From Fervidobacterium nodosum Rt17-B1 (lineage in GTDB: Bacteria; Thermotogota; Thermotogae; Thermotogales; Fervidobacteriaceae): DNA of 64,000 nt. Below, in pieces: positions 3,401 through 22,649 of the stretch (its first letter is position 1; every line of letters starts with the position of its first letter). The notes under the pieces were generated by a model, which was not told the origin of the DNA, did not search any database, and worked only from the letters and a program-made list of their open reading frames with translations. The stretch is taken from NCBI RefSeq assembly GCF_000017545.1, contig NC_009718.1, positions 1,364,001-1,428,000 of the forward strand. Direction: 5' to 3'. The position numbers and the translations under genes were made by a program.

Positions 3401-5030
3401 GAACTAACTTTGTACCATCTGAAAAGTTTTGCAAAATAGTAACTTTAAATTTCTTTAAGAAATTTTCATCAGCTTTTACAATGTAGGTTGACTCACCTAA
3501 AACATCTACATATTTCAAAAATTTCTTGTAAGTATCTTCGCTAGAAAAAAGATTTACGATAACTTTATTTTCTATTGTTTTCATATCGAAATCATTTTCC
3601 AAGACGCCGATATATTTGAGTATTGAAATTACAACATTTTCTGGAACGTCATCAATTACAATTTTCCAAGGATTTCCAATGTATGATTCTTTTGAAAGTG
3701 ACAAGGCAATTTTTTCATAACCAGAAACAACATACAACTTGCCCGAAACCACTTTGGGGTTAGAATTTGGATAAATTTCTTTTAAAACTGCCTGAACTCT
3801 TTCAGGATAATTCACATCAACAGGTATATATGTTACTGTTGTTGATAGTTGAGTGACTTTAGACTCGGCGCTTTTAATTATTTTTTCAACTTGAGAAACT
3901 ATAGAAGCATCATCAACCAATATGGCTAGCTTCTTATCTGATTGAAGAATCGCAAAATCTTTTATATCGTATATCTTTTGCAAAGAAGTAATTAGAGAGC
4001 TAAGCTCATCTTCGCTAATGTTATATTGAATATAGTACCACTTGCGTTGCTGAATTCTTGCCATAATTTGTTTTAGTAAATTCTCTACTTCTAAAGGTTT
4101 TGATGTTTTAACAGCTATTTTTTTCTGTTCTTTTAAAATCACATAATCATCTGTTGTAAACCCATATATTTTTGAAATTTGAGAAAGCGCTTCCTCAATA
4201 TCTTTGTCTGAAACATTGTATGAAATATAGTACCAATCTTGAACTTTCATAGGCACCAGAGCTTCAGCTATCATTTTATATTCATTAACTCCACCATAGA
4301 TGAAAACTTTTGATTTATCTCTGGTTAAACCCAAATAAGATCCAGCACTTAAAACTTCTCTCAATTTTTCAACATTCACTTGCGCATCGTAAACTTGCCA
4401 GAAAACAGCAAAATTCTTTTGAATTTCCTCCTTGCTTCCAATATACATAACTTGGTCAGAAGCGTAAGCGTAAGAAAGATTGGCAGCAGTTAAAATTGTT
4501 CTGATTACATCTTCAATAGAAGAGTTATCTAGCTTAATGCTTACGGACTTATCCTTGGCTCCGTCGTAAAGAACCACCTTAATTCCAAAAAACTCGGCAA
4601 CATCTTTTATTAAAATATCACTCTTTATATTTGCAAAACTTGCGGTTAACCTTTTTGAAGACATACTATATGGCAATCTTATATACAATTTAGTACCTGT
4701 GGTATTGTACTTAACACTTCCTGGAGTTAAAGTATAAACAAAAGCATTGACTTTTCCGTCTATTGGAACTATTTGAACGCCCTCAGTACTACCTATTGAA
4801 ATAGGTAAGTAAATTGATCCTTTTGCAAAATCATCAATAAGGAAATAATGAACAGTTCTACTCTCGTTTTTACCATAATATAAAACATTAGGCGCTTTCG
4901 AAAAAGAAAGTACAATTACAATCTCATTAGTCGACGTTACATAACTTACGTCTAAGAGTTCTGAATACAATAATGTATTGAAAAAAACAAGTACCAAGAA
5001 AACTATAAAGTATTTAATTAACCTATTCAT
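471..5030 (-). CDS. pilQ: Giant secretin of the type IV pilus / type II secretion family (PilQ-like), 1,519 aa
   Basis: Outer-membrane secretin expected to form the ring pore for type IV pili or secretion. A signal peptide (residues 1-23) is followed by an STN-like domain near 135-200. Residues about 265-945 hold repeated alpha/beta units of roughly 60-75 residues, with recurring phrases such as WYYIQYNISEDE, LFIDYPDSFDSVIKTLYNVETY and TLLNYPEELDSLIKEYFNVKTY. Three further STN-like units lie at about 960-1215. The C-terminal secretin core (about 1280-1515) carries the hallmark VPILGDIPILGYLF. Known PilQ/GspD proteins are usually 500-800 residues, so the periplasmic part is greatly expanded. 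The start is the ATG at 5030, behind a GGGGGGA site; a TTG 15 nt upstream has no such site. It follows PilP-like and PilO/N/M-like genes, the standard pilMNOPQ order. Confidence 0.9.
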   Translation of the reverse strand: MNRLIKYFIVFLVLVFFNTLLYSELLDVSYVTSTNEIVIVLSFSKAPNVLYYGKNESRTVHYFLIDDFAKGSIYLPISIGSTEGVQIVPIDGKVNAFVYTLTPGSVKYNTTGTKLYIRLPYSMSSKRLTASFANIKSDILIKDVAEFFGIKVVLYDGAKDKSVSIKLDNSSIEDVIRTILTAANLSYAYASDQVMYIGSKEEIQKNFAVFWQVYDAQVNVEKLREVLSAGSYLGLTRDKSKVFIYGGVNEYKMIAEALVPMKVQDWYYISYNVSDKDIEEALSQISKIYGFTTDDYVILKEQKKIAVKTSKPLEVENLLKQIMARIQQRKWYYIQYNISEDELSSLITSLQKIYDIKDFAILQSDKKLAILVDDASIVSQVEKIIKSAESKVTQLSTTVTYIPVDVNYPERVQAVLKEIYPNSNPKVVSGKLYVVSGYEKIALSLSKESYIGNPWKIVIDDVPENVVISILKYIGVLENDFDMKTIENKVIVNLFSSEDTYKKFLKYVDVLGESTYIVKADENFLKKFKVTILQNFSDGTKLVQGRINEIERLKKSISEEITNFAIQKIPTDPPAEVISKLTGYVVEDKDKYFIVTVSKSEIETAKTTIEKVRKDYGNTMIILPDKYKSEAKKAVEDIYNVKVYQIGESIVLQGSLVNDAKKFLENFVQESENIVEILGKIEPNSSKMLGELFNVKLYQAGDVSYIVGTPSNVSRAKEYAKLIESVSVDLSFKVGQNHIDYLKKVYNVEIDYFPDINKMVVTGLKENVAEAVSYLNSLNPSDSLLSMVLPQNLKKEEIDKLSKLIAPSVEIEQVGNIIYINGEIKDVEKIKQEIEKLSITPERKYLFIDYPDSFDSVIKTLYNVETYKTSQGYVVFGTNEQLENVKKFVSENSVLDKSYTLLNYPEELDSLIKEYFNVKTYKVSQGFIVVGSKEEIGKVSKFIGEISLEQGKEYSLVDDKLLIDVSNKNIKDVIITVGRLFKQQFVLVDDIKSTCSMRTVVSNFQEFLDKLSSYNITYELKNDTYYISIMKTQQSTTTANQVVKEEIKTEPVVVKDGLITINVSNMPVDDIITQVMVKLNKSYKLEKIGASISSMYLKDINYETFKETFSTWVNFTEVGSITYITPKGVINNKTDSKKAFVKDGLINLKIDNEPISQVIQTIFDELGYQVVFAKPIDRTATMSVSGIDFETFNSIMLNYGISIKKSGNVYIVDTTPDATKVQTTYTFNVPRNTDKVEELIKFYGGKTMVSPSAGIIVAYDLDPKNVDDINKLIEKFTTPKIVSIDARIIDESRNGSLSEEIVTLLKAGNYLTFGSNGLTLNVSLLDILDGSIIDKILNEAGISLDLRGAEQGTPFRATSGIGKLLANPNIMTKSGEEARIFIGDSIPLKIVSTSGGQTNEQVISLEGGIELKIVPYVNADNTIDLVITTSVSNFDYSVLVNGLPKINKRDASTKITIKDGQTLVIGGLSREEKSKSEWKVPILGDIPILGYLFRGTKEASEQRSITIFLTAKIVDIMKE

Positions 5031-5049
5031 TAATAATCCCCCCAAAATA

Positions 5050-5673
5050 TTATTGTTTTGCCAGTAAATTAGAAAGTTTTTTTATTTTCCCATCGTAAGT
5101 ATCAAGTAAAATAATTTCAAATTCACGAACATCTATAATTTTGTATCTATTATCAATTATTTCCGTATCGTAAAAAGATTTTGTATCCGTTCCTTGCCTA
5201 ATATATACTTTTCTTCTTTGCTTACCACCCTCGGAAATGGATAAATAACCAACATATTCGAACTCTGCAGTTGATATATCTTCAATTTCTCCAAAAGCTG
5301 AATTAGTACTTTTAAGCCTCGAAGAAAGAAACTTACTATCGCCAGTTGATACTTTGTCAAATTTAATTTCAAGTAAGTAAGGCTTGAACATATCAGTAAA
5401 TGTAGAATCTGGTATCATGTTTTGTATTTCAACAATAGAAAGATTTTGAGCAATAACTTGTGAACTATTTTCTGTTTGATTCAAACTCGGATTTTGCCAT
5501 TGATTTTGAACACCTTGAGTAGGAGTACTAACTGATTGTTGAGCCGTCTGTAGTACCGGTTGAGGATTTGGTGAATTCATACGTATAAGAACAAAAATAG
5601 CAACAACCCATATAATTACTGCAATCAGTAATAGAATAAGTGTTTTTTTATTGACTTTTCCCCCAAGAGTCAC
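5050..5673 (-). CDS. Membrane-anchored pilus assembly protein, PilP-like by position (207 aa)
   Basis: A short cytoplasmic N-terminus, one TM helix (about residues 9-30), a Pro/Gln/Ser-rich linker (about 33-75) and a C-terminal domain that is probably beta-rich (about 80-205). There is no lipobox. This is the layout of an inner-membrane connector reaching a secretin, and the place between PilO-like and PilQ genes is that of pilP. Sequence identity to PilP is not obvious by eye, so the name rests on context. The GTG start directly abuts the previous stop (TAG then GTG) and has a GGGAGG site 7 nt upstream inside the previous gene, suggesting translational coupling. Confidence 0.6.
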   Translation of the reverse strand: MTLGGKVNKKTLILLLIAVIIWVVAIFVLIRMNSPNPQPVLQTAQQSVSTPTQGVQNQWQNPSLNQTENSSQVIAQNLSIVEIQNMIPDSTFTDMFKPYLLEIKFDKVSTGDSKFLSSRLKSTNSAFGEIEDISTAEFEYVGYLSISEGGKQRRKVYIRQGTDTKSFYDTEIIDNRYKIIDVREFEIILLDTYDGKIKKLSNLLAKQ

Positions 5674-9135: not shown

Positions 9136-9810
9136 TTATTTCTTTATCACTTCGTCGGAAACCATCTTGCCATCTTCAAGTGTAATAACTCTTTCACACA
9201 AATCCATAAAAAGCTCTGGTTCGTGCGTAGCTATAATATAACCCTTATTCTGATTTCGAAAACTCTCCAAAATTTTTCTAATTGATAAATAACCTTTCAA
9301 ATCTAACCCTGCTGTTGGTTCATCAAAAATCAAAAATTTTGGATTATGAAGTAAGATAGAAGCAATCGCTATCTTGCGCTGTTCACCACCAGAAAGCTTA
9401 AAAGGTGATTTGTAAAGTATTTCTTCATTTAATCCCACACTAATAAGCAGTTTTTTTAAATCTTCCTTTGTGTAAGAAACTCCAAAGTTTTTTGCGGCAT
9501 ATGTTATTTCTTGTTCAACAGTTTCGTTAAAAAATTGTCTTTCTGGTATTTGAAAAGCAACCCCAAATTCTTTTCTAAAATTGTATGCTTTTTCAAATGG
9601 GTTTGTACCATCGTAAAATATTTTCCCTGATGAAGGTTTTATAAGCAAGTCTAAAAGATAAATCAGCGTTGTTTTTCCTGATCCAGTGTTTCCAACAAGT
9701 AATATTCTTTCATCAGTTGTAAATGATAAATTTATGTTACTCAGTGCTACTTTTTCAACATCCGTATTTTTTTCGAAAATAACGGAAATATCTATCAATT
9801 CAACTTTCAA
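9136..9810 (-). CDS. Energy-coupling factor (ECF) type ABC transporter ATP-binding protein (224 aa)
   Basis: ATPase with Walker A GNTGSGKTT (about residues 39-47), a Q-loop reading QIPERQFF, as in EcfA-type ATPases, signature LSGGEQRK, Walker B FLIFDEPTAGLD and switch histidine in ATHEPE. ECF ATPases energise uptake of vitamins or metals with an EcfT and a substrate-binding S component, none of which is in this window, so the substrate cannot be named. It ends 14 nt before the CTG of pilC and starts 27 nt after the methyltransferase gene, all on one strand. Why it lies inside the pilus operon is not clear from the sequence. Confidence 0.8.
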   Translation of the reverse strand: MKVELIDISVIFEKNTDVEKVALSNINLSFTTDERILLVGNTGSGKTTLIYLLDLLIKPSSGKIFYDGTNPFEKAYNFRKEFGVAFQIPERQFFNETVEQEITYAAKNFGVSYTKEDLKKLLISVGLNEEILYKSPFKLSGGEQRKIAIASILLHNPKFLIFDEPTAGLDLKGYLSIRKILESFRNQNKGYIIATHEPELFMDLCERVITLEDGKMVSDEVIKK

Positions 9811-16549: not shown

Positions 16550-17785
16550 CTAACAATGACCAATAAAATCAATGACATCTTGGTCAAATTGCCTTAGAGA
16601 TTTTGTTAATAGTTCAATTCTTCTAATAGTTTCTTCAACATCTTTTGCAGCAAAGCCATTTCCACATGGTATATTTGTGTCTTTAAGCGCCAATTTTGAA
16701 GCGTTCAGTGCCATTTGTGTACCTATACTTGCTTTCAGTGCACAGCCTCGTTTAGCTCCGTCGCAAGTCATACCAAAAAGCGTCGCTAAAACGTTATTTA
16801 TAGCATTTTTTATTTGCTCAGCGTTACCACCTGCAAGGTAAGTTATTGCAGCACTACTGCCAGCTGATGCTATGGATCCTGCACCGCACACAGGTGTTAA
16901 AACACCTGTGAACGCTTTTATGTAAGTTGTTACAAGAATACTTAACAAAACTGCCTTTTCTATTTTTTCTTCTGGCATTTCATTTTCCCTACCGTACAAT
17001 GTTGGGGGAACTATCGATGCTATACCCTGATTACCACTACCAGCTACAGTCATTATTGGTATCAATTCGCCATTCATTCTCTCATCAACACCAGCAGCAA
17101 CATATGCGGGTATTCCTTCTTCCAGTGCATATCCAAAATTCCCTTCTTTTTTTATTCCTTCCCTTGCAGCGTTAACATTGTATTTTATGCCTTCTTTTAC
17201 AACATTTACAACATCTAAATCAGGATTTTCAATGTATTCAAAGATATCGTTCAAAGAAATTGATTTAACCAAATCTTTCTTAAAATTAACACTCGTTTGA
17301 GTGTTTCTTATTTCATTCCCATCAACAACTATTTTGCTAATATTATCATGTGAATCAGTTATTTCAATCAACACTTCGTTATCTGCTTCAAGCTTTGTTT
17401 TGATATGGAGATTATACGAATTCTCATAGCTAACTCTTATTTTATCTTTCAATTCATAAGCTTTTGAAAGTACATGTGAATTCACATCTTTGAAAACTTG
17501 CAAGCCATATTCTGGTTTTCCTACAAGATACGCAAGAGCTATTGCGAGGTCAAATCCATGTAAGTGAGTACCAGGTATACCTACTTCTAAACCATTTTTA
17601 TATGTATTTCTGTCCATTATCACATCTATGCTTTTCAATACACCCCTCAAATACCCTTTCCCAACGGCAACCGACAAACCTACAGCAACAGGTTCCGTGC
17701 AGCCATACGATAATTTTACATTATCGAAAAATATCTCCCTGATTATACTTCTTTTTGAATTCTCTCCTTCTAAAAACTCAGACAT
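16550..17785 (-). CDS. cyuA: L-cysteine desulfidase family protein (UPF0597/CyuA), 411 aa
   Basis: Predicted Fe-S enzyme that splits L-cysteine to pyruvate, ammonia and sulfide (family: M. jannaschii cysteine desulfidase; E. coli CyuA/YhaM). Seen: LSYGCTEPVAVGL near the N-terminus, GSGNQGIA, TPVCGAGSIASAGSSAA and MTCDGAKRGCALK; the last three cysteines fit the ligands of the 4Fe-4S cluster. ATG at 17785 has GAAGGAGG 8 nt upstream and overlaps the end of metF by 8 nt, so it is part of the methionine operon. In this setting it could supply sulfide for homocysteine formation. A serine/other deaminase activity cannot be excluded. Confidence 0.85.
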   Translation of the reverse strand: MSEFLEGENSKRSIIREIFFDNVKLSYGCTEPVAVGLSVAVGKGYLRGVLKSIDVIMDRNTYKNGLEVGIPGTHLHGFDLAIALAYLVGKPEYGLQVFKDVNSHVLSKAYELKDKIRVSYENSYNLHIKTKLEADNEVLIEITDSHDNISKIVVDGNEIRNTQTSVNFKKDLVKSISLNDIFEYIENPDLDVVNVVKEGIKYNVNAAREGIKKEGNFGYALEEGIPAYVAAGVDERMNGELIPIMTVAGSGNQGIASIVPPTLYGRENEMPEEKIEKAVLLSILVTTYIKAFTGVLTPVCGAGSIASAGSSAAITYLAGGNAEQIKNAINNVLATLFGMTCDGAKRGCALKASIGTQMALNASKLALKDTNIPCGNGFAAKDVEETIRRIELLTKSLRQFDQDVIDFIGHC

Positions 17786-18719
17786 TTAAAATTCCTCCTT
17801 CTCTTAGTAACTTCAAAACCTTGCAAACTTCTTCCCCTCGTCCCATCGTAAAAATATGAACCCCCGGAGCATCTTTTTCAAGAAGATTTTTGATTAGTTC
17901 AACAGTAAAACGGACACCTATTTCAAATTCTTCACTTTCAGATTTAGCTTCTTCCATTTTTTCAACAAATTTTTGTGGAATATTCACGAAAAACTTCTTT
18001 GGAATAGAATAAATTGACTTCTTACTTACCACAGGTTTTACACCCGGTATAATCGGTATATTTATCCCCATACTTCGAGATTTTTCAACAAATTTTTCAT
18101 AAATTGCTGCATCAAAAACCATTTGAGTTATTATAAAATCAGCGCCATTATCAACTTTCTGTTTTAAAAACCTTAAATCAACGTCTAGATTCGGAGCTTC
18201 AAAATGCTTTTCTGGATATCCCGCAACTCCTATACAAAAATTTGTTGGTTTGGCTTCTGTGTAAAGGTATCTCCCATTGTTCATATCAGATATTTGCTTA
18301 ACCAAATCTGAAGCATATTTATAGTCACTCTTCGCTACAGATTTAACTTCTTCCCCACGCACTACAAAGACATTTTCAACACCCATTATAGACAAGTCTA
18401 TTAAAATATCCTCCATCTCAAATTTGTTCATACCTTTGCAAACCAAATGAGGAACAACATCGATATTGTACCTTTTCATCAAAGCGGCAGTCAAACCTAT
18501 TGTTCCTGGTCTTTTTATCTTTTGAACCTTAATTATTCCATTTTCCGTTTCTAAATAATCTATTTCAGACGGATGGCGCGTTATATTTATGAAAGATATG
18601 TTATAATCCATCAACTTATCTAAAGTGGCAAATATTTTTTCAACATCTTCTCCTCTCTTAGGAGGGATTATCTCTATCGAAACTATCTTTTCATTTCTTA
18701 ATTTTTCAACGATTTTCAA
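17778..18719 (-). CDS. metF: Methylenetetrahydrofolate reductase (313 aa)
   Basis: Reduces 5,10-methylene-THF to 5-methyl-THF, the methyl donor for methionine. TIM-barrel family signatures: SIEIIPPKRGEDVEKIF at the N-terminus, NITRHPSE, DVVPHLVCKG, ENVFVVRGE, FCIGVAGYPEKHFEAPN, GADFIITQMVFDA and IPIIPGVKPV. The chosen start is the TTG at 18719, 7 nt behind AGGGGGAG; a TTG at 18743 would include that site in the coding region. It lies 30 nt after the UPF0280 gene and overlaps cyuA. The C-terminus (residues about 285-313) is close to the usual length. Part of the attenuated methionine operon. Confidence 0.93.
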   Translation of the reverse strand: MKIVEKLRNEKIVSIEIIPPKRGEDVEKIFATLDKLMDYNISFINITRHPSEIDYLETENGIIKVQKIKRPGTIGLTAALMKRYNIDVVPHLVCKGMNKFEMEDILIDLSIMGVENVFVVRGEEVKSVAKSDYKYASDLVKQISDMNNGRYLYTEAKPTNFCIGVAGYPEKHFEAPNLDVDLRFLKQKVDNGADFIITQMVFDAAIYEKFVEKSRSMGINIPIIPGVKPVVSKKSIYSIPKKFFVNIPQKFVEKMEEAKSESEEFEIGVRFTVELIKNLLEKDAPGVHIFTMGRGEEVCKVLKLLREGGILNV

Positions 18720-18749
18720 CGTTTTGCTCCCCCTTCTTGCCAATATAAT

Positions 18750-19499
18750 CTATATTTCGAACCTCACATTCCCTATAACTCCCATTTTTCCATTAATTAT
18801 AATTACTACCCCATATATTACATCTTCCAAAAAACTTTTTGTGTATTCCAAGACATCTGTAATATCTCCGCTTATTTTTACCATATTTGAAAGTTTAGTT
18901 GCAAATCCATCTGCTATTAGTGAGTTTTTGGCTATAACTGTAACGATATCCGCATTACCAAAATTAAGAGAATGACCTATCTTTCCAGATGAACTACACA
19001 CACCAAATTCTCCAGAACTGAGAACTATAGACAATCGGTTAAATTCACTATCAAAGTTGGAGAATATTCCTATTCTTGTTTCATCGAACGAATTGATGTA
19101 TATATCACCGCCATTCTCAACGATAACTTTTTTACTTTTGTACTTCTCAATCAAATTTTTACCAACCAACTGAGAAAAGGCACCAGCTACACATGCCATC
19201 GGACCTACACCGGCAGTATTTGAAGCTTCTATCATTTTTTTAGCAATTTCTGGGGCATTGCCATCATATCCAATAGGTACCAAAGAAGTTTTAAATTCCT
19301 TATTTTTCCTTATATAGTCTTCCAACTCATTGTAAAGTCTTTTCACAGTTTCATACGTAAAATCGAGCATTTCAAGGTCAAAATTGTCAACTCCTACCCA
19401 GATATCCGTGTACTTGTACTTAACAAAAAAGCCTGTGATATCTTTTGAATAACTTTCCCTGTAAAACCTTTTAACAATAGGAATTTTACTTGATTTCAT
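18750..19499 (-). CDS. UPF0280 (COG2122, ApbE-like) protein of the reductive homocysteine pathway (249 aa)
   Basis: Family signatures: TAGVGPMACVAGAFSQLVG, VENGGDIYI, GVCSSSGKIGHSLNFGNADIVTV and LIADGFATKLSN. COG2122 proteins were linked genetically to sulfide-dependent homocysteine synthesis in Methanosarcina together with COG1900 (DUF39) and a ferredoxin-type protein; here it lies 21 nt after a DUF39-ferredoxin fusion, the same partnership. The biochemical role is not settled. The fold is related to ApbE flavin transferases, so a flavin or redox role is possible. ATG at 19499 has a GAGGGAT site. Confidence 0.85.
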   Translation of the reverse strand: MKSSKIPIVKRFYRESYSKDITGFFVKYKYTDIWVGVDNFDLEMLDFTYETVKRLYNELEDYIRKNKEFKTSLVPIGYDGNAPEIAKKMIEASNTAGVGPMACVAGAFSQLVGKNLIEKYKSKKVIVENGGDIYINSFDETRIGIFSNFDSEFNRLSIVLSSGEFGVCSSSGKIGHSLNFGNADIVTVIAKNSLIADGFATKLSNMVKISGDITDVLEYTKSFLEDVIYGVVIIINGKMGVIGNVRFEI

Positions 19500-19520: not shown

Positions 19521-20888
19521 TTAATTTTCTGATTTCTCGTAAGGTAATCTTATACCTTGAGGACAAGAATCCGAACACAATAGACAATAAGTACACTTTG
19601 AAGCATCGTATCTAACTTCTCTATTTTCATCAAAATAAAGTGCATTGGTACTACACAAACTAACACACGCGCCGCAATTCACACAAGTTTTCTCGATTTT
19701 ACTCTTCAAAGTTATATAGTTTTCTCTCATAGGTTCATCTACAATTTTTTTATCTGAAAGGCTTTTTAATTTTCTTTCCTCGTGGAGTTTTTCAACTGGA
19801 TTAGTCAAAAAGAACATACCTTCCTTTATCCAGTTTTTCAATATTTTAGAAATATCTCTAGCTTTATTCAAACTTGATAATGAACTTGTTTTAACTTTTT
19901 TACCATTTATTTCAACATATCCGCTTTGCAGTTCTTCATAATTAACTACTTTTATTGTTGGTTTATCAATTTTCGAATAGTCTTTAATTTCTGTTTGTAT
20001 GTCTCTGTTTGATAAACTAACATAATAAGCTATTTCTTCGTTTAATATGGGGATTGGAATCCCAACACCAACAAATAAAGTAACTCCATAATTTTTAAAG
20101 TACGCGCCTTTAATAAACTCCGTACTCATTTTTTTAGCATCCCCAACAAGTGCCAAGGTTCTTGAAGGTACAATTGGAATACCTTTGTCATTTATTTTAA
20201 CAACGTTTCTAAACTGAGTACCATACCATGAAACGTATCCTATACCACCACCTAAGAATATCCTTGTACCTACACCAATTGTAAGCATCTTCGGATCTTT
20301 TAGAAGAGGACTAAGCTCTCCAGAAGTTGAATAAGTTACATTTCCATAGTTTGGTAATAACTTACCCATGTAAGTGTAAATTGTTTCATCTGAGCTATTT
20401 GTTGCTGCAGCGTAATTTTGATAAGCATTTCTTGGGTTAAACAAGAAAAAATCATTTATCGTTTCTTTATTAATGTATGTTTTAAAATATTTTCCCGGAT
20501 AACAATCTGTACCTTTTCCCCAAGCTTCAAGTAATATATCTTCTCCCTTTATTAAAAGCTCAATTATATGTCCACCACCAAATGACTTATCATATTCAGA
20601 TTCTTGAGTGGCCCCAATATATCCGTCTACAGCAGCAATTCCTCCGTAAACTCCAACACCTCCTAAGTTTATCTTTTCCATCCTCATAGGTGGTAAAGTA
20701 TGCCCAAAGTTAATAAACGCACCGCTTGAACACATCGGAGCAAAAGTTCCTGTTGTAACGACGTCGACTTTCTTCGCAACCTCTTTTATGCCTTCTTCCT
20801 TAGCCATTTTAACAACTTCTTCAGCTGTTAAAACCACAATTTCACCTTTTGCTATTTTATTATTTATTTCTTCGATTGTTTTTGCCAT
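19521..20888 (-). CDS. DUF39 (COG1900) homocysteine biosynthesis protein fused to a 2[4Fe-4S] ferredoxin domain (455 aa)
   Basis: Predicted to make homocysteine from aspartate semialdehyde and a sulfide or persulfide sulfur, using ferredoxin-type electrons. The DUF39 part covers about residues 1-370, with Cys53 (in APMCSSGAF) and Cys129 (in GTDCYPGKYF) where the family's reactive cysteines are expected from memory of work on methanogens. The C-terminus (about 400-450) holds two clusters CVNCGACVSLC and CTYCLLCSDSC, i.e. a fused ferredoxin replacing the separate NIL-ferredoxin protein of methanogens. The gene starts 4 nt after aspartokinase, which begins the route to aspartate semialdehyde. 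ATG at 20888 with AAGGAGG 12 nt upstream. Confidence 0.88.
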   Translation of the reverse strand: MAKTIEEINNKIAKGEIVVLTAEEVVKMAKEEGIKEVAKKVDVVTTGTFAPMCSSGAFINFGHTLPPMRMEKINLGGVGVYGGIAAVDGYIGATQESEYDKSFGGGHIIELLIKGEDILLEAWGKGTDCYPGKYFKTYINKETINDFFLFNPRNAYQNYAAATNSSDETIYTYMGKLLPNYGNVTYSTSGELSPLLKDPKMLTIGVGTRIFLGGGIGYVSWYGTQFRNVVKINDKGIPIVPSRTLALVGDAKKMSTEFIKGAYFKNYGVTLFVGVGIPIPILNEEIAYYVSLSNRDIQTEIKDYSKIDKPTIKVVNYEELQSGYVEINGKKVKTSSLSSLNKARDISKILKNWIKEGMFFLTNPVEKLHEERKLKSLSDKKIVDEPMRENYITLKSKIEKTCVNCGACVSLCSTNALYFDENREVRYDASKCTYCLLCSDSCPQGIRLPYEKSEN

Positions 20889-20892
20889 AGTA

Positions 20893-22362
20893 TTAATTTA
20901 CCTCCTTAATTTGACTATCTTCATCTTCAAAAAATTCTTTGTGTACCAACTTAAATGCTTTTTCTCCATCTTTGGAATCTGTAATAAAGTAAATTGAAAC
21001 ATCTGAAGCTCCTGCTGATATCATCTCAACATTAATGCCTCCACGACTAACTGCTCCAAAAATTTTAGAAGCTATACCGTGGGCATCAAGCAACCCTTCA
21101 CCAACAACTGCTATTAATACCTTATCTTTTTTAAATTTTATTTCTTCTATCTCTTTTAATTTCAGACTTTCAGATAACTTCAAAACCTTATCTAAATCAC
21201 TCATGGATATGATTAAATTTATCGAAGTTTGAGAAGTAATCACAAACTTTATGTTCACACCACTTAAAGCCACACGTGAAGCTATTTCTCCAAGTATTCC
21301 AGGAACTCTTCCAAAATTGTGTCCTTTGAATTGAACAATTGCGATGTCGTTTGTCATAGAAACACTTTTTATGCAATTAGCCGTGTAATCTCTAATATGC
21401 TCTAATTCATTTCCTTCACTATAATCTTTTATTACTGTAAAATTGATACGATTGTCTAATAACAATTCATAACTTTCCAACTTTTTTAAATCTTCGATAC
21501 TACAAATATACAATGGAATGGATTTTAACCTTAAAGGTTCTACTGCGCTATGATGAAGTACTTTCGAACCAAAATAAGATAATTCATCAGCTTCTTCGTA
21601 ATTTAGCATTCTTACAATCTTAGCGTTTGGCGTTATTTTTGGGTCTCCGGTAAGGAAACCTAGAACATCTTTAACGAGAATCACAGAATCCGCATCTAAA
21701 CAATATCCTAAACTAGTTGCAGTATAGTCACTTCCACCACGTCCAAGTATTGTAATATCACCATTGGTAACTGACTTACCGTAAAAACCAGGTACTATAA
21801 AATCACCACTTTGCCATTCACTAATGCTTTCAGCTAGAGCAGATTTACTCTTTTCTAATAATACACTTGAATTACCATATCGACCATCTGTGATTAGAAA
21901 ATTTTCTGGATATGCGATCTTAAATTTCATTCCATATTCTAGAAGTAACTTTTCCATTATAACAGCGCTCCATCTTTCTCCGGAACTAACCACCTTGTCA
22001 TATACAAAATCTGGAACTCTGCCTATCATTTTTGAAGCGTAAAGCAAATTTTTTAGGGAATAAATCTCTTCTTTAATCAGATACATATCTTCTTCGGTAA
22101 AATTTGCAAATTTCAAGTGATAATTGTGAATGTCATTTAAAAAAGAATCGATATTTAAATTTGTTATATTTTTTAAAGCCTCTATAAGTTTATTTGTTAT
22201 CCCCTTTAGTGCACTTACAACGATAACAAGTTGATGATCTTTAAAAATTTTATTTTTCAAACTAACTATAATCTTTGAAATATCAACTAGGCTTTCTGGA
22301 GAGTCTAAAATAGATCCCCCAATTTTGATAATTTGAAATCTCCTTTTCCATGTTTGATTCAC
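20893..22362 (-). CDS. Aspartokinase with two C-terminal ACT domains (489 aa)
   Basis: Phosphorylates aspartate, the first step toward aspartate semialdehyde. Kinase motifs: IIKIGGSIL near the N-terminus, VVSSGERWSAVIM, ITDGRYGNSS, VPGFYGKSVTNGDITILGRGGSDYTAT and KVLHHSAVEPL. ACT domains at about residues 330-395 and 405-470 point to feedback control by an amino acid. GTG start at 22362, 9 nt behind AAAAGGAGG. It is the first structural gene after the terminator of the Met-rich leader at 22422-22586. No aspartate semialdehyde dehydrogenase is in the window. Confidence 0.93.
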   Translation of the reverse strand: MNQTWKRRFQIIKIGGSILDSPESLVDISKIIVSLKNKIFKDHQLVIVVSALKGITNKLIEALKNITNLNIDSFLNDIHNYHLKFANFTEEDMYLIKEEIYSLKNLLYASKMIGRVPDFVYDKVVSSGERWSAVIMEKLLLEYGMKFKIAYPENFLITDGRYGNSSVLLEKSKSALAESISEWQSGDFIVPGFYGKSVTNGDITILGRGGSDYTATSLGYCLDADSVILVKDVLGFLTGDPKITPNAKIVRMLNYEEADELSYFGSKVLHHSAVEPLRLKSIPLYICSIEDLKKLESYELLLDNRINFTVIKDYSEGNELEHIRDYTANCIKSVSMTNDIAIVQFKGHNFGRVPGILGEIASRVALSGVNIKFVITSQTSINLIISMSDLDKVLKLSESLKLKEIEEIKFKKDKVLIAVVGEGLLDAHGIASKIFGAVSRGGINVEMISAGASDVSIYFITDSKDGEKAFKLVHKEFFEDEDSQIKEVN

Positions 22363-22421
22363 AGAATCGCACCTCCTTTTTGTTTAAAATTTTGCTTGAA
22401 TTTTGTTAGAATGTGTGGTAT

Positions 22422-22456
22422 AAAAAAAGCGGTCGGGTTTCTTCAACCCGACCGCT
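22422..22456 (-). terminator. Attenuator terminator upstream of aspartokinase
   Basis: On the minus strand AGCGGTCGGGTT (22456-22445) and AACCCGACCGCT (22439-22428) form a perfect 12-bp G+C-rich stem with a 5-nt loop, followed by seven Ts (22428-22422). It lies 60 nt before the aspartokinase start and 29 nt after the leader stop codon, so transcription of the operon has to pass it. Confidence 0.92.
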
Positions 22457-22510
22457 GGTTTTTTGTAACAGCAAAATGGTGTACCTATAATTTCCAGCGG
22501 TCGGTACACC
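22447..22510 (-). promoter_or_regulatory. Antiterminator and pause hairpin of the methionine attenuator
   Basis: Alternative pairings on the minus-strand RNA. Pause hairpin: GGTGTACC (22510-22503) with GGTACACC (22485-22478), 8 perfect bp. Antiterminator: CCGACCGCTGG (22504-22494) with CCAGCGGTCGG (22458-22448), 11 perfect bp, using the 5' arm of the terminator. The leader peptide ends at 22485, so a ribosome finishing translation would cover the antiterminator's 5' arm, while one waiting at the Met codons (22529-22512) would block the pause hairpin. This is the arrangement of trp- and his-type attenuators. Confidence 0.85.
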
Positions 22511-22586
22511 ACATCATCATAGCCATCATATTAACATTTATCGTAACGATATTCATAAGAGAATATTTTTCTTTTAGCTTAGACAC
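22485..22586 (-). CDS. Methionine-rich leader peptide of the aspartokinase-homocysteine-metF operon (33 aa)
   Basis: A short reading frame starting with GTG at 22586 behind GAGGTGAT and ending with TAG at 22487-22485. The central part reads NMMAMMMWCT: five Met codons in six, at residues 20-21 and 23-25, plus Met11. The Met run lies just before the competing hairpins of the attenuator and the stop codon lies inside them. The downstream genes make methionine, so the peptide most likely works as a sensor of charged Met-tRNA through ribosome stalling rather than as a product. An internal ATG at 22556 would give a 23-residue version with the same Met codons. Confidence 0.85.
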   Translation of the reverse strand: MSKLKEKYSLMNIVTINVNMMAMMMWCTDRWKL

Positions 22587-22621
22587 ACAATCACCTCAAG
22601 CCAAAAATTTCTTTGAAATAG

Positions 22622-22649
22622 ATTATATAACAATTACTCGAAAAATCAA
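22622..22649 (-). promoter_or_regulatory. Promoter of the methionine leader transcript
   Basis: Minus-strand TTGATT (22649-22644) and TATAAT (22627-22622) with a 16-bp spacer. Transcription would start near 22615, about 20 nt before the leader ribosome site, giving a leader RNA of about 190 nt up to the terminator. Confidence 0.75.

Follow-up and report, generated by a model that had tools for sequence, protein, structure and literature searches.

A candidate methionine attenuator with a Met-codon leader peptide upstream of homocysteine-synthesis genes in Thermotogota

The homocysteine operon of Fervidobacterium nodosum and its leader

We analysed a 64,000-nt stretch of the Fervidobacterium nodosum Rt17-B1 genome (hereafter the window, whose numbering is used throughout). 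Its minus strand carries an operon headed by an aspartokinase gene, which is followed by a gene for HcyBio (Table 1). Between HcyBio and metF lies a gene for a PRK04334-type protein, which we take to be the COG2122/UPF0280 homocysteine-pathway protein. COG2122/UPF0280 has been tied to homocysteine synthesis (PMC5764234), and HcyBio-type operons lead to homocysteine and methionine (PMC5764234, PMC12068725). The SDH_alpha-type gene at the operon end occurs there in genus g1 only, the genus of the window; its cysteine desulfidase-like product may be a sulfide source for homocysteine synthesis. The Cys/Met PLP enzyme family had no strong match in the genome (best 1e-9), which leaves the operon as the only homocysteine route recognised there. 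Regulation by methionine is therefore expected. The genome has three tRNA genes with a CAT anticodon, the minimum set of initiator, elongator Met and Ile2 tRNAs.

Table 1. Genes of the operon and parts of its leader, in window positions
Feature	Positions	Strand	Remarks
Promoter-like site, TTGATT-16-TATAAT	22622..22649	-	10/12 matches; called by consensus match alone
Leader ORF	22485..22586	-	GTG start at 22586; 33 codons plus TAG (22487-22485); homologues in relatives
Shine-Dalgarno sequence of leader ORF, GAGGTGA	22597-22591	-	
Regulatory codons 20-25, ATG ATG GCT ATG ATG ATG	22512..22529	-	MMAMMM
Strand 1, 5' arm of 8-bp pause hairpin	22503..22510	-	GGTGTACC/GGTACACC; pairs with 22485-22478
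Pause hairpin 3' arm	22478..22485	-	first base is the final base of the leader stop codon
Strand 2, 5' strand of 11-bp antiterminator	22494..22504	-	CCGACCGCTGG/CCAGCGGTCGG; within codons 28-31
Strand 3, antiterminator 3' strand	22448..22458	-	pairs with 22504-22494
Intrinsic terminator	22421..22456	-	12-bp stem (22456-22428) and seven T (22427-22421)
Aspartokinase with ACT domains	20893..22362	-	GTG start
HcyBio (DUF39/COG1900)	19521..20888	-	L-aspartate semialdehyde sulfurtransferase type; fused to 4Fe-4S dicluster domain, without NIL domain
PRK04334-type protein	18750..19499	-	taken as COG2122/UPF0280
Methylenetetrahydrofolate reductase (metF)	17778..18743	-	
SDH_alpha / L-cysteine desulfidase-like protein	16550..17785	-	last in operon

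The leader is located between a divergent acylphosphatase/purA operon and the aspartokinase gene, the first structural gene, which its intrinsic terminator precedes. The first-pass annotation of this DNA had described a promoter, a GTG-started ORF with a Shine-Dalgarno sequence, and five ATGs among codons 20 to 25, and we located each of these where it had been placed. The 8-bp pause hairpin, the 11-bp antiterminator and the 12-bp terminator with its seven T were likewise recovered. Antiterminator and terminator have exactly nine bases in common (22456-22448) and are mutually exclusive. The predicted leader peptide is (V/M)SKLKEKYSLMNIVTINVNMMAMMMWCTDRWKL.

The Met run is exceptional in the genome. 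According to a six-frame scan of the complete 1,948,941-base sequence, five Met in six codons occur once, at the leader, as does ATGATGNNNATGATG. Among short ORFs with a Shine-Dalgarno sequence that precede 256 candidate terminators with a downstream gene, the runner-up had 2 Met in 7 codons. The fold of the leader RNA surpassed those of all 200 dinucleotide shuffles (z -4.4), and the 460-base leader region contained four terminator-like sites where 0.2 were expected. Two Leu-rich leader candidates found elsewhere in the genome resembled, on inspection, the ends of other genes rather than leaders.

Distribution of Met-run leaders and of other sensors

HcyBio orthologues were identified at E < 1e-100 in 35 of 103 Thermotogota genomes, and the gene order of the operon is maintained in most of these. 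Met-run leaders with a Shine-Dalgarno sequence and a terminator were found at 22 of the 35 loci; two further loci, at metY genes, bring the total to 24 genomes in 11 genera and 6 families. The antisense strands of the same HcyBio loci yielded no Met-run leader. Elsewhere in the phylum, exact matches to the Met-run patterns fell mostly within ordinary proteins. The runs themselves are diverse: MMAMMM in six genomes of g1, MMPMMM in genus g2, NMMIMxGMW in g3, NMMIMCGEF in g5, MIM in four genomes of g9, MMM in family f8, MMNTMMMRMM in f11, MNMWM in f10 and YMMMR in f7. The leaders of g9 have just 2-3 Met codons. In that genus (L038, L040, L044 and L045) the leader heads a longer operon, in which a methionine synthase activation-like gene and metH precede aspartokinase; the sister genus g8 has this longer operon and no leader.

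The homocysteine synthase MetY is non-homologous to HcyBio. Genus g38 of family f11 has no HcyBio, and in two of its genomes a leader with the same C-terminus (RRRPFDRRC) and a terminator stand directly upstream of a metY-type gene. Because it occurs both at HcyBio and at metY, the leader tracks homocysteine synthesis and not a single gene. The metY genes of the Thermotoga-like genus g13 have no leader.

No leader was detected at 13 HcyBio loci: five in g8, those of g7, G071, G088, G002 and G005, two where SAM-I takes its place, and one truncated by a contig end. At L032 (G069, ~4160-5640), ~1.4 kb of extra sequence separates the Met-leader terminator from aspartokinase. A genome of the same genus, G071 (L042), has a different HcyBio operon with an f2-like arrangement and no Met leader, possibly the result of replacement by transfer. 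Outside Thermotogota, no convincing Met leader was seen at HcyBio loci among the best 80 of >588 candidates; the sole convincing one in that set was on a Mesoaciditogaceae contig, itself Thermotogota.

The HcyBio proteins of Thermotogota carry the ferredoxin-domain fusion without NIL, as in the window and at L062 (7443-7868) and L069 (7158-7568). G002 and other phyla have NIL on a separate subunit; the domain is absent in all genomes listed for the window's family. We considered whether the leader substitutes for the Met-binding NIL domain. The leader-bearing genomes examined have no NIL at HcyBio, and G002 has NIL and no leader, but we set the idea aside as mere correlation: the f10 genomes with SAM-I also lack NIL beside HcyBio.

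Turning to other sensors, no Rfam family matched the window, the Trp, His, Leu and Thr leader models included. SAM-I (RF00162) was absent from the window, from the F. nodosum genome and from its family, and T-box (RF00230) had no match in the 103 Thermotogota genomes at the search threshold. SAM-I was found in 12 genomes of family f10 and stands upstream of the HcyBio operon in three. In G053 (L058, ~9300-9782, minus strand) the two elements are in tandem: SAM-I with its own terminator comes first, and the Met leader with a second terminator follows. Such an operon would read SAM and Met-tRNA charging in series. The proposal that the cell uses the leader instead of a T-box agrees with the lack of T-box matches in the genome. 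As to its use instead of a SAM riboswitch, the proposal is true of the window's family and not of the phylum, since f10 employs SAM-I, once in tandem. A separate arrangement was noted at L061 (G046, 4682-5025), where SAM-I is followed by a short ORF (MSDMYNMKINNSIKSNKHKKVLIIGIT), a hairpin and then aspartokinase; close to the stem this ORF has Ile/Leu codons and not Met ones.

Conserved geometry and predicted folding

The first-pass annotation had proposed an alignment of the region with its relatives, and its reading would have been refuted if these had no Met run or no competing stems. Instead, Met run, competing stems and spacing recur in the 24 Thermotogota genomes, across six families, and the stem sequences are unrelated between families. 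Despite these differing stems, the spacing is constant in 21 of the 22 HcyBio leaders: counted from the last Met codon's first base, the antiterminator strand starts after 7-10 nt. All 22 also show an overlap of 8-15 nt between strand 3 and the 5' arm of the terminator. The helix of strands 2 and 3 was matched by two or fewer of 200 shuffles in 19 of the 22 leaders; in G011, G085 and G015 it was less distinct (13, 18 and 6 of 200, respectively).

In the closest eight leaders, the antiterminator displays compensatory changes in four pairs (12 cells), and its covariation score was reached by none of 500 shuffles and was lost when the partner strand was slid. The terminator stem has one pair with changes on both sides. 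All eight g1/g2 leaders retain the pairing of the pause hairpin, in which one T-A pair has become C-G by a double change and one G-C pair has become G-U; these were counted by hand, as the 3' arms were misaligned in the MAFFT alignment. Sequence and comparison together show which parts the element has, how these are arranged, that they are conserved and which codons are involved.

A short ORF might also lie by chance before a terminator that is constitutive or bidirectional and separates divergent genes, and the stem can indeed be read as a plus-strand terminator too. Against this stand the genome-unique Met density, the recurrence in 24 genomes, the compensatory changes and the constant spacing. 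Moreover, no upstream gene on the minus strand needs this terminator: the adjacent operon begins at ~22687 and runs away from the leader on the plus strand. Coincidence can practically be dismissed.

We propose that the element is very probably a classical ribosome-mediated transcription attenuator that senses Met-tRNA charging. RNA polymerase would transcribe the leader and a ribosome would begin the 33-codon peptide. If Met-tRNA(Met) were scarce, the ribosome would stall at codons 20-25, where it would cover strand 1 of the pause hairpin and leave strand 2 mostly free. Strand 2 would then pair with strand 3, the terminator would consequently be blocked, and the aspartokinase-HcyBio-UPF0280-metF operon would be transcribed. 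If Met-tRNA were plentiful, the ribosome would reach the stop codon and cover strand 2; the 3' arm of the terminator would then capture strand 3, and the polymerase would stop at the T run. We infer that the promoter is used, that the ORF is translated, that ribosomes stall on it, and that the operon responds to methionine.

To model these states, we moved a 31-nt footprint along the ORF and folded the transcript at the stage when the 3' arm of the terminator has yet to be synthesised, using an equilibrium model with a generic footprint and no pseudoknots. At 65 °C, mean sequestration of the terminator arm was 0.69 when the ribosome occupied the Met run and 0.40 when it had moved on by two to seven codons. 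Sequestration stayed high until the last Met codon and then fell immediately. The drop was in the expected direction in 21 of 22 leaders at 65 °C (Wilcoxon, 1.4e-6) and in 20 of 22 at 37 °C, although statistical tests of this kind do not amount to 22 independent trials, because many of the leaders are related by descent. The model therefore predicts that a ribosome at the regulatory codons frees strand 2 and that a ribosome beyond them blocks it. In the ribosome-free, pre-terminator transcript the arm was sequestered at 0.79-0.81, the equilibrium fold favouring the antiterminator, while the minimum-energy fold of the full-length RNA comprises the pause hairpin and the terminator. The equilibrium fold alone thus does not give termination of an untranslated leader; that outcome depends on the pause hairpin forming first.

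The leader peptides help to identify what is sensed. At the stall position and the two preceding codons, Met is more frequent than any other residue: 8 of 10 genera have it at position 0, 7 of 10 at -1 and 6 of 10 at -2. Conservation peaks on it, and the N-termini and first half of the peptides vary freely. Met at the stall position together with a free N-terminus favours codon sensing over arrest by the nascent peptide. Under the latter explanation, which we consider improbable, the Met-rich peptide would itself stall the ribosome, perhaps with SAM or methionine as ligand. Small-molecule-sensing arrest peptides such as TnaC exist (PMC8429421), and the blocks MMAMMMW and MMPMMMW are conserved inside the window's family. 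Across genera, however, it is the codon position that is common and not the peptide (MMAMMM, MIM, MMM, MMRM, NMNMWM), and the tunnel-side N-termini are unconserved. With this geometry, moreover, arrest by excess product would turn the operon on at high methionine, which is the wrong sign for a biosynthetic operon.

Several genera have Trp, Arg or Cys after the Met run, and it is conceivable, if very unlikely, that the leader senses one of these residues or general translation stress. Trp, Cys and Arg differ by genus at each position, whereas Met does not; stalls past the last Met favoured the antiterminator less in the masking folds; and the products of the genes downstream, HcyBio or MetY, are enzymes of methionine synthesis.

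Finally, the short ORF might be incidental to an aptamer-type element that binds SAM, methionine or, T-box-like, a tRNA. SAM-I serves the same operon in the three f10 relatives, and direct reading of uncharged tRNA(Met/fMet) is known both from T-boxes and from a SAM-I expression platform in Xanthomonas (PMC7270179). The window, by contrast, matches no Rfam family, its genome contains neither SAM-I nor T-box, and what is conserved across families is the ORF, the Met codons and the stem spacing rather than a ligand-binding sequence or fold. We judge this explanation very unlikely. Overall, Met-tRNA attenuation, as first suggested for the window, is supported by the Met run and stems in six families, by the compensatory changes in the antiterminator, by the absence of SAM-I and T-box from the genome and by the standing of the operon as the sole recognised homocysteine route. 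The small number of Met codons in g9, the 13 HcyBio loci at which no leader was detected and the three less distinct antiterminators weigh against it.

Relation to known attenuators and significance

Textbook cases of leader-peptide attenuation, most of them proteobacterial, concern Trp, His, Leu, Thr, Phe and Ile/Val. The first-pass annotation had likened the locus to the trp, his and leu attenuators. As in the proteobacterial trp, his, leu, thr, phe and ilv attenuators (RF00512, RF00513, RF00514 and RF00506 for four of them), a leader ORF contains a run of codons for the operon's own product, and a pause hairpin, mutually exclusive antiterminator and terminator stems and a stop codon near strand 2 are present. 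Unlike them, the present leaders have Met codons and a Thermotogota host, and the lack of an Rfam match indicates no sequence relation.

Other systems share one feature or another. Sulfur amino acid codons also occur in leader ORFs of Mycobacterium cys operons (PMC1262725) and in the Rhodobacterales uORFC-8-2 upstream of cysS (PMC8632094), but there they specify cysteine, not methionine, and the mycobacterial leaders have no obvious intrinsic terminator. SAM-I (the S-box) likewise controls methionine operons through transcription termination, including the same HcyBio operon in the three f10 genomes, but does so by an aptamer that binds SAM. Charging of Met-tRNA controls methionine synthesis through the Met-specific T-box and, with uncharged tRNA(fMet), the Xanthomonas SAM-I platform (PMC7270179); these bind the tRNA directly and without a ribosome.

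A survey of attenuators in Rfam listed only His, Leu, Thr and Trp, with mention of Ile/Val and Phe (PMC3766115), and a survey of actinobacterial leaders included none for methionine (PMC1262725). We found no leader-peptide attenuator for methionine in the open-access literature searched, in keeping with what had been said of the phylum at first; a methionine attenuator is thus likely to be novel. The class of mechanism is old, and the amino acid, the phylum and the tandem with SAM-I appear to be new. Taken together, the data make it probable that the element is a Met-specific ribosome attenuator, apparently the first for methionine, which is old in Thermotogota, tracks homocysteine synthesis (mostly HcyBio, with metY in g38) and is stacked behind SAM-I in G053.

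Methionine is a special case among the amino acids sensed in this way, as its tRNAs serve both initiation and elongation. The shortage that induces the operon would therefore also limit the initiation that the sensor needs. If the proposal is correct, a phylum-wide Met attenuator would mean that the mechanism is workable for methionine and in a phylum of thermophiles only distantly related to Proteobacteria. The leaders would supply natural variants with 2 to 7 Met codons and different stems, and the natural tandem with SAM-I would allow the sensing of SAM and of Met-tRNA to be compared on one operon. The element would also lend independent support to a role of the HcyBio pathway in methionine synthesis in Thermotogota.
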